From Zhongshania aliphaticivorans (lineage in GTDB: Bacteria > Pseudomonadota > Gammaproteobacteria > Pseudomonadales > Spongiibacteraceae), in the NCBI RefSeq assembly GCF_001586255.1, contig NZ_CP014544.1:1767501-1831500 (forward strand): DNA of 64,000 bases, in the 5' to 3' direction. Below the pieces are notes generated by a model that made no database searches, had not been told where the DNA came from, and was given only the letters and a program-made list of their open reading frames with translations. The translations under genes and the position numbers were made by a program. Shown piece after piece: positions 39,713 to 42,206 of this stretch (position 1 is its first letter; every line of letters begins with the position of its first letter).

Positions 39713-39841
39713 ATTCATTATGCAGTTCAGCAATATTGACGCGGTGGTTGAGTGGTATTTTAACTCCAGCGCCAGTAGCGATTTAGAAAGGACCGGTATC
39801 GACCGGCGTACACAAGTAAAGTGTAGAAAAAAGCGATTTTA

Positions 39842-39915
39842 GGCGCGGTGGCAGAGTGGTCATGCAGCGGACTGCAACTCCGTGTACGCCGGTTCGATTC
39901 CGACCCGCGCCTCCA
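39842..39915 (+). tRNA. tRNA-Cys (GCA)
   Basis: 74 nt with encoded CCA. Acceptor GGCGCGG/CCGCGCC, anticodon loop CTGCAAC with GCA, T-loop TTCGATT and the U73 discriminator required by CysRS. The E. coli gly-cys-leu cluster has a Leu tRNA after Cys; none is visible here. Confidence 0.98.
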
Positions 39916-41532: not shown

Positions 41533-41658
41533 TGTTCACCGCTGCTTATGATGTGCCGTCACGCTTGTTGGCGACGACGGTGTAATGTAGCGCGGCTAGA
41601 TATTCAAGTTAAGGGTTTAGGCGTTGAATGCTAGTTTTAGCGGAAGAAAATGCCGCCG

Positions 41659-41714
41659 CGCCATTACAAAAAAAGGCCCTAGTCTCGCGACTAGGGCCTT
41701 TTTTTGTAATGGCG
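41659..41714. terminator. Long perfect inverted repeat acting as tRNA-Ser terminator
   Basis: Arms 41659-41684 and 41689-41714 are perfect 26-bp inverted copies with a 4-nt loop TCGC. The core is GGCCCTAGTC/GACTAGGGCC flanked by seven A and seven T, a strong bidirectional terminator. The outer part includes the tRNA 3' end (CCA and discriminator, 41710-41713) and a mirror copy of it. Confidence 0.85.
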
Positions 41715-41799
41715 GTGAGGGAGGGATTCGAACCCTCGAACAGTTTAACCCGTTACACGCTTTCCAGGCGTGCTCCTTCAGCCACTCGGACACCTCACC
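41710..41799 (-). tRNA. tRNA-Ser (GGA)
   Basis: 90 nt class II tRNA. Acceptor GGTGAGG/CCTCACC, D-arm TCCGAGTGGCTGAAGGA, anticodon stem GCACGCC with loop holding GGA, a long variable arm, T-loop TTCGAAT, G73 and encoded CCA. Its 3' end is embedded in the following inverted repeat. Confidence 0.97.
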
Positions 41800-41805
41800 A
41801 AAATC
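41778..41805. repeat. 28-bp direct repeat, copy 1 (5' end of tRNA-Ser)
   Basis: Identical to 41906-41933. It covers the first 22 nt of tRNA-Ser plus six bases of upstream flank. Confidence 0.95.
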
Positions 41806-41868
41806 GTTTTTCGTGCGCCTTTTAGATGGTTTTACGAGCGTCAGGATCACACGCCTGCGTGCTCGTTA

Positions 41869-41927
41869 TCGCCCTAGGGGCGCTTTCTCCGGCAAAGCCT
41901 CCGAATCAGCCACTCGGACACCTCACC
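41869..41927 (-). pseudogene. tRNA-Ser-like relic in the tRNA-Ser leader
   Basis: On the minus strand it starts GGTGAGGTGTCCGAGTGGCT exactly like tRNA-Ser, then shows GGAG, a 5-bp anticodon-like stem GCTTT/AAAGC with a 7-nt loop, and a variable-arm-like GCCC-CTA-GGGC. No T-arm or 3' acceptor strand follows. Position 33 of the loop would be C instead of U. It sits between the predicted promoter and the true tRNA-Ser, so it should be in the precursor. Confidence 0.6.
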
Positions 41928-41933
41928 AAAATC
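41906..41933. repeat. 28-bp direct repeat, copy 2 (tRNA-like relic)
   Basis: Identical to 41778-41805, offset by 128 bp. It marks the 5' end of the relic and shows that flanking bases were copied too. Confidence 0.95.
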
Positions 41934-41973
41934 TTTACTTAAAACCGTTGTGGAGCTGGTTTTAAGGGCGGCT

Positions 41974-42002
41974 ACTCTAACGAAGTTTCAACTTAATGGC
42001 AA
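41974..42002 (-). promoter_or_regulatory. Predicted promoter of tRNA-Ser
   Basis: Minus-strand TTGCCA (41997-42002), a 17-bp spacer and TAGAGT (41974-41979). A 9-bp inverted repeat CTTAAAACC/GGTTTTAAG (41938-41966) lies just downstream in the leader. The rest of 41800-42206 holds only the relic and leader sequence; no gene is seen. Confidence 0.6.
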
Positions 42003-42206
42003 TTGCCAATGTGTTTTCATTTTCGTTAATGCTTCTTGGTGGTGCGCCAAGTTAAGGCTGCGTCATATAGGTGCAAATTACATGGGCGATTTACGTTAAC
42101 TGGTTGATTTAGTATATATTTATGTTCTGGAACATTTATTGCTGGAGTATGATGGGCAGTGATCTGCTGCATTGTAGATTGGAAGTTAAATACTCTAAGG
42201 GATCCT

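Follow-up and report, generated by a model that had tools for sequence, protein, structure and literature searches.

A conserved half-tRNA leader unit upstream of tRNA-Ser(GGA) in Zhongshania aliphaticivorans is built like a tRNA-linked repeat in mirror image

Background

tRNA-linked repeats (TLRs; Rfam RtT, RF00391) were first described in 1978 and, in the sections of PMC8144298 that deal with them, are said to have had no known function as a class as of 2021. According to the same sections, every E. coli TLR has 18-19 bp in common with the 3' end of the upstream gene, an early starvation phenotype was retracted, and transcription and processing are reported for three E. coli TLR RNAs located after rRNA operons, which Hfq and CsrA bind in vitro (PMC8144298). 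In the RtT portion of PMC4986893, two Actinobacillus RtTs are reported to give Northern signals, a stringent-response claim is repeated, and RtTs are placed upstream of Asn and Lys tRNA genes in a remark that makes no mention of tRNA 5' ends. Extracts of two further papers report rtT-like attenuator candidates in enterobacteria (PMC2965389) and a tandem GA motif in RtT (PMC7657543).

In searches of the open-licence PMC literature, no class of upstream units carrying tRNA 5' ends was found; the nearest precedent is the statement in PMC4986893, cited above, that places RtTs before tRNA genes. The unit described here was identified in a 64,000-nucleotide stretch of Z. aliphaticivorans DNA (the whole of which is referred to as the window). 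It is a variant built like a TLR in mirror image, and this upstream, 5'-end form is new.

Results and Discussion

The unit upstream of tRNA-Ser(GGA)

The unit is placed between a promoter-like site and the tRNA-Ser(GGA) gene on the minus strand of the window, where the following features were assigned:

41974-42002, minus strand: promoter-like site, TTGCCA-17-TAGAGT, then AGCCGCCC (found by scan; recurs across the genus upstream of units)
41906-41927, minus strand: head of the unit, an exact copy of tRNA-Ser nt 1-22 (repeat comparison)
41800-41927, minus strand: half-tRNA leader unit of 128 nt, from the head to the last base 5' of tRNA-Ser (repeat, relatives and conservation)
41710-41799, minus strand: tRNA-Ser(GGA) gene (tRNA search)
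41659-41714, minus strand: 26-nt perfect inverted repeat 3' of tRNA-Ser, a probable terminator (not flagged by the scan rules)

The original prediction for this locus was that half of tRNA-Ser had been copied upstream of the intact gene, leaving a 28-bp perfect direct repeat 128 bp apart. Both were found: positions 41778-41808 and 41906-41936 form a 31-nt direct repeat (30/31 identical, 28 perfect bases, spacing 128), and the copied stretch comprises tRNA-Ser nt 1-22, exact in the head of the unit, plus upstream flank. Identity over 28 bases inside a region of roughly 1 kb greatly exceeds what chance would produce. The span first proposed, 41869-41999, covers the promoter and the first half of the unit, while the whole unit runs from 41927 to 41800. 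The copy had been described as lacking a T-arm and a 3' acceptor; neither T-arm-like nor 3'-acceptor-like sequence was seen in the unit, and no tRNA was called there by ARAGORN or the Rfam tRNA model. Among the 38 tRNA genes of this genome (450-bp flanks), only Ser(GGA) has an exact copy of its head upstream.

The promoter that had been anticipated further upstream corresponds to the site at 42002-41974, upstream of both unit and tRNA. No second promoter-like site was found in the region, including between the unit and the tRNA, and this position supports the proposed common precursor of the relic and the tRNA. Taken singly, the site is at chance level (expected 0.8-0.9). On the opposite side of the gene, the inverted-repeat arm at 41659-41714 includes the CCA end of tRNA-Ser. 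Elsewhere in the same genome, outside the window, a copy of the front half of tRNA-Asp is found downstream of its gene (L158, 701-731), 155 nt past the gene start, and an approximately 100-bp tandem repeat comes after it.

Distribution within the genus

The comparison took in the window genome together with 17 congeners, and the tRNA-Ser(GGA) leader was examined in 17 of these, all but G003. Head-bearing units, numbering from one to at least three per genome, occur in nine of the 17 (G000, G001, G005, G008, G009, G010, G011, G015 and G017), and a head-bearing unit is absent from the other eight (G002, G004, G006, G007, G012, G013, G014 and G016). Two unit types were recognized: type A, that of the window, and type B, which has a longer hairpin set (G001, G005, G009 and G011). 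Whole units, bounded by direct repeats, differ between relatives. For example, G002 is colinear with the window minus exactly 128 bp, such that the distance from the promoter -10 to the tRNA is 180 nt in the window and 52 nt in G002, the difference being the unit; its absence from G002 fits recombination between direct repeats. Because eight of the 17 examined relatives, including the close relative G002, have no head-bearing unit, the unit is dispensable. Downstream copies were also identified: G006 has no upstream unit and carries two tandem downstream units ending in the tRNA 3' end, while G004 and G014 each have a single downstream tail copy (≤4 mismatches in 18; eight genomes searched for tails).

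Conservation and predicted fold

Relative to G017, G015 and G008, the part of the unit that follows the head has identities of 0.94, 0.92 and 0.96, respectively, and the tRNA has identities of 0.98-0.99. The corresponding values are 0.71-0.85 for the promoter and early leader, 0.68-0.77 upstream of the promoter (a region partly within an ORF) and 0.63-0.68 past the terminator. When 12 type A units were aligned (A4), three helices with 16 pairs emerged:

41900-41918, minus strand: P1, in which 41913-41918 (head nt 10-15) pairs with 41900-41905 (12-unit alignment)
41870-41882, minus strand: P2, a CGCCC/GGGCG hairpin (two-sided changes at 3/5 pairs)
41849-41862, minus strand: P3, an anticodon-arm-like hairpin, GCACG-CAGG-CGTGT, without an anticodon loop (one-sided changes only)

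An anticodon-like stem-loop had been predicted in the copy; the hairpin is indeed present as P3, and the anticodon loop is absent. In A4, 97.9% of cells are paired, compared with 24-48% in slid versions of the alignment, and two-sided changes occur in 3/16 pairs, all of them in P2; P1 is paired in 95.8% of cells across the 12 sequences with no two-sided changes. None of 500 shuffles scored as high as A4 on four of five measures, with the qualification that the structures were drawn from the same alignments that were tested and that related sequences are not independent. On the fifth measure, the number of pair types, 381/500 shuffles scored as high, so A4 is not above shuffles in this respect.

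As judged from these alignments, the unit is conserved and structured and is not a decaying copy, because its non-head part is 92-96% identical (flanks, 63-85%) and compensatory changes are present in one hairpin. The proposal that the relic is just the decay of a tandem copy was not supported, as the leaders of 9/17 examined relatives carry a conserved, partly covarying and sometimes tandem unit. These nine relatives do not have random sequence at the relic; the remaining eight are those without a head-bearing unit. By the same sequence comparisons, the unit appears as one copy of a tandem-prone, structured tRNA-Ser(GGA) leader element.

A second case at tRNA-Cys

A further unit was identified in the window upstream of a tRNA-Cys gene:

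39738-39841, plus strand: diverged half-tRNA unit upstream of tRNA-Cys (head differs at 3/16 nt)
39842-39915, plus strand: tRNA-Cys(GCA) gene (tRNA search)

In the genus, a head copy (≤4 mismatches in 18) is found upstream of tRNA-Cys in 10 of 18 genomes and not in the other eight. These units are tandem, in two or three copies, in G006, G011 and G004, with exact heads in 5/7. The Cys units differ in build, and in single folds most form GCCGGT..ACCGGC and ACAC..GTGT hairpins.

Upstream units in other genera

A search of 390 genomes of the order for two heads 114-174 nt apart (exact pattern) identified 19 genomes, distributed over families f1, f18, f41, f43, f46 and f47; the reversed-pattern control gave 0. 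A scan of the named collection for two heads 117-177 nt apart, in which the first 14 nt match by construction, gave 60 stretches, some of them from one genome. The taxa represented are Zhongshania, Spongiibacter, Litorivivens, Alcanivorax, Alloalcanivorax, SAR92, Porticoccaceae, Marinobacterium, Amphritea, Microbulbifer, Oleiphilus, Zobellella, Oceanimonas, Oceanisphaera, Aeromonas, Bowmanella, Aliiglaciecola, Ferrimonas, Neiella and others, which we take, from the record names, to belong to several orders. With ARAGORN, the upstream head proved not to be a full tRNA in 59 of the 60 stretches, 53 of which continue into a complete tRNA-Ser(GGA) and six into one cut by the contig end; the exception is a true tRNA pair in Xenorhabdus (L106). 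A nearly Zhongshania-like unit was found in L080, labelled Candidatus Nitrotoga, where assembly contamination is possible.

Many units follow a common plan consisting of the head, one to four clade-specific hairpins and an A+T-rich tail, and a GAGCACGC..GCGTGC-like hairpin is frequent in upstream units. In the first upstream unit of L037, the hairpin block is itself repeated in tandem. Units of tRNA-Ser(GCT) that were found via Rfam matches, and are hence free of search bias, bear the head of their own tRNA (L148, GGAGAGCTGG; L149, GGAGAGATGG). Concordance between unit and tRNA at head nt 15-22 is 0.855 for a unit's own tRNA and 0.820 when permuted (0/5000), a statistic that ignores relatedness and was set aside as evidence. 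In this set, 15 units belong to a tRNA that deviates from the most common sequence, and 11 of them fail to match that tRNA in full.

Relationship to TLRs and other described RNAs

The closest known thing to the unit is the TLR. Both are repeated units in tRNA transcripts that each carry an 18-22 nt copy of the end of the neighbouring tRNA, but TLRs are downstream elements that finish with the tRNA 3' end, whereas the units described here lie upstream and start with the tRNA 5' end. By position only, the unit agrees with the account of TLRs as elements located inside tRNA or rRNA operons with one to five copies at each locus (PMC8144298). It was not filed as a TLR because it lacks a defining TLR feature. 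At the gathering score, Rfam identified only tRNAs and no RtT in the window, and no RtT was found up to E 5 in 41640-42160. Similarly, no tail copy (≤3 mismatches in 18) lies within 450 bp of any of the 38 tRNA genes of this genome.

Of 293 order genomes, 38 contain RtT matches at E ≤ 0.001, with scores above the cut-off in 20, and the last 18 nt of the adjacent tRNA (Ser, Tyr, Arg, Lys, Pro or Gln) are near-exactly copied at 23 of the 30 RtT loci fetched. In Amphritea (L059), three RtT RNAs lie downstream of a tRNA-Ser that also bears an upstream unit, and the upstream and downstream units have a 19-nt hairpin in common with two differences (CATCGGAGYTTRCGACGAT). L119 and L121 likewise each have a window-type unit upstream and an RtT unit downstream of one tRNA-Ser(GGA) gene. 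A nearly complete copy of tRNA-Arg(CCT), with an RtT-like core in its T-loop, is found upstream of the intact gene in L152 (1451-1617).

The hairpin core common to the upstream units of other genera and RtT is described by a model (R1) made from ten upstream cores from other genera with the head removed (alignment A3). A3 leaves out the type B cores, used in alignment A1, and L148, L149, L078 and L112, used in A2; R1 was limited to ten sequences because A1 and A2 are partly misaligned. The ten A3 cores have two-sided changes in 9/22 pairs and, subject to the caveat given for A4, 0/500 shuffles scored as high on four of five measures; on the fifth, the number of pair types, 359/500 did so. Both L148 and L149, used as unseen tests, were matched by R1. 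Of 30 RtT loci, R1 matched 19 at E < 0.01, five at 0.01-0.1 and one at 0.17, and missed five at E ≤ 1. It matched none of 28 other tRNA loci of the window genome at E ≤ 1, and it did not recognize the window unit's own short core.

When 143 genomes of the class were searched with R1, 28 were matched at E ≤ 0.001. The 30 R1 loci that were fetched have upstream heads only (five), downstream tails only (12), both (four) or neither (nine, of which five have a tRNA and four do not). G513 contains seven scattered R1 matches, six of them equal in score, which may be rRNA-linked TLRs or a dispersed repeat. A second model, R2, was made from 19 window-type and Marinobacterium-type cores, the window among them, with the following stretch as the window's contribution:

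41858-41906, minus strand: core used in R2 (model training)

The strong matches of R2 are L119 and L121, both upstream of tRNA-Ser(GGA), and no RtT 3' unit was found with this model, a result that speaks against a direct relationship between the window type and TLRs. Any tie between the two runs through an intermediate, the Marinobacterium/Amphritea type, which has the 19-nt hairpin (two differences) in common with the RtT found in its own genome. For the upstream units of other genera, the connection with TLRs is thus firm; for the window type it is only indirect.

Three other comparisons were made. The upstream unit of L033 resembles AaHKsRNA22 (RF02902, an Aggregatibacter sRNA) with a sub-gathering score of 34.3 of 39.8 bits (E 5.7e-5), but the window unit has no match to it up to E 5, and a half-tRNA end is not seen in the visible part of the L033 alignment. 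A tRNA pseudogene or partial tandem duplication has, like the unit, an origin from a tRNA gene, but the unit is conserved and structured, not decaying. With respect to 3'ETS-leuZ, we know of no half-tRNA repeats in this RNA. It is located on the 3' side of its tRNA; it resembles the leader unit in being a discarded tRNA-precursor spacer, and it pairs with two sRNAs (PMC8144298, in the passage on this RNA).

Possible role of the unit

We hold, with some confidence, that the unit is a selected, structured leader RNA that forms the 5' counterpart of TLRs and is probably freed at RNase P maturation of the tRNA. RNA polymerase would start at the sole promoter-like site, giving a single precursor of leader, unit and tRNA. 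The unit would fold first, forming its local hairpins, and cleavage by RNase P at 41800/41799 would then yield the tRNA and a leader RNA bearing the unit. By analogy with the systems described above, such a released leader RNA is the best-supported reading.

One alternative is that the unit is a neutral by-product, in which a partial tandem duplication of the leader and the front half of the tRNA is kept alike by recombination with the tRNA and is tolerated because the leader is discarded. The variation in unit number from none to at least three, the absence of a whole unit between direct repeats in G002 and the remnants of units found further upstream at several loci are all consistent with such an origin. 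A neutral by-product nevertheless seems unlikely given that the part of the unit that is not tRNA-like is 92-96% conserved compared with 63-85% in the flanks, that both window-type and other-genus cores show compensatory changes and that a similar plan is found in distant families.

The unit might instead act purely in cis, with hairpins that steer RNase P or RNase E, impede Rho or control the rate of tRNA-Ser synthesis, and have no role in trans. Wherever the TAGAGT site is recognizable in the genus, the units sit between this site and the tRNA. Furthermore, head nt 1-8 pair within the unit above shuffles (mean z 0.77; z > 0 in 32/39), with head sequestration reaching a z of about 2 in the window and Alcanivorax-type units. 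Most loci of Aeromonadaceae and Alteromonadales show little or no such sequestration, however, and relatives without the unit keep the same promoter and tRNA, and we therefore consider an exclusively in-cis element improbable. Between a small-RNA role coupled to tRNA synthesis and purely in-cis processing or anti-termination, the former is somewhat likelier.

It is very unlikely that the unit is a mobile element or an integration scar that uses tRNA genes, although several observations are in keeping with this: the arm and the tRNA gene at which cores sit vary, two genomes have similar cores at separate genes (G506, 0.86; G517, 0.80), and comparison of L146 with L151 (G506) revealed an apparent orphan copy about 5 kb away that ends at CCA. 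Against this, the window genome holds no further copy of the unit at E ≤ 0.001, and none of six neighbouring ORFs compared with Pfam has an integrase match (one has no match at all). Moreover, Alcanivorax-type upstream cores are 0.92-0.99 identical between genomes and only 0.55-0.59 identical to the downstream core of the same genome, and were therefore inherited in place.

No tRNA was called at the orphan downstream-type tRNA-Ser unit (L146/L151), which may reflect copying of a segment or passage through an RNA intermediate. A dispersed repeat in the window genome was rejected on the same lack of further copies at E ≤ 0.001. A CsrA sponge likewise found no support: in 42 non-redundant units of named genomes, the window not among them, GGA motifs are not enriched, at 2.33 per unit (2.73 in shuffles), with 1.17 unpaired (1.10 in shuffles).

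Finally, the original prediction suggested a decoy for RNase P or for Ser-tRNA processing. A decoy or switch in which the head of the unit and the 5' end of the tRNA itself vie for pairing with the 3' acceptor strand can scarcely be credited: the tRNA 3' strand prefers the unit head in equilibrium folds of 38/39 non-redundant loci, but the same outcome is seen in 89% of controls in which the rest of the unit is shuffled, so this competition arises because the energy model contains two identical heads, and a folding decoy is rejected.

Conclusions

The reading of the unit as a leader RNA released during tRNA maturation can be extended, more tentatively, beyond this locus. The Gammaproteobacteria may possess an undescribed class of leader RNAs matched to the kind of tRNA they precede (5' tRNA-linked repeats), at Ser, Cys, Gln, Pro and Arg tRNAs, which would be the mirror image of TLRs, have a common core with them at least at Ser genes and yield small RNAs in amounts that follow tRNA transcription; the window would hold two. 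R1 provides a model able to find both the upstream and the downstream kinds, and the window genome and G002 constitute a natural presence/absence pair for probing the role of the RNA. An upstream, mirror-image class matched to its tRNA would show the half-tRNA end to be independent of 3' processing.
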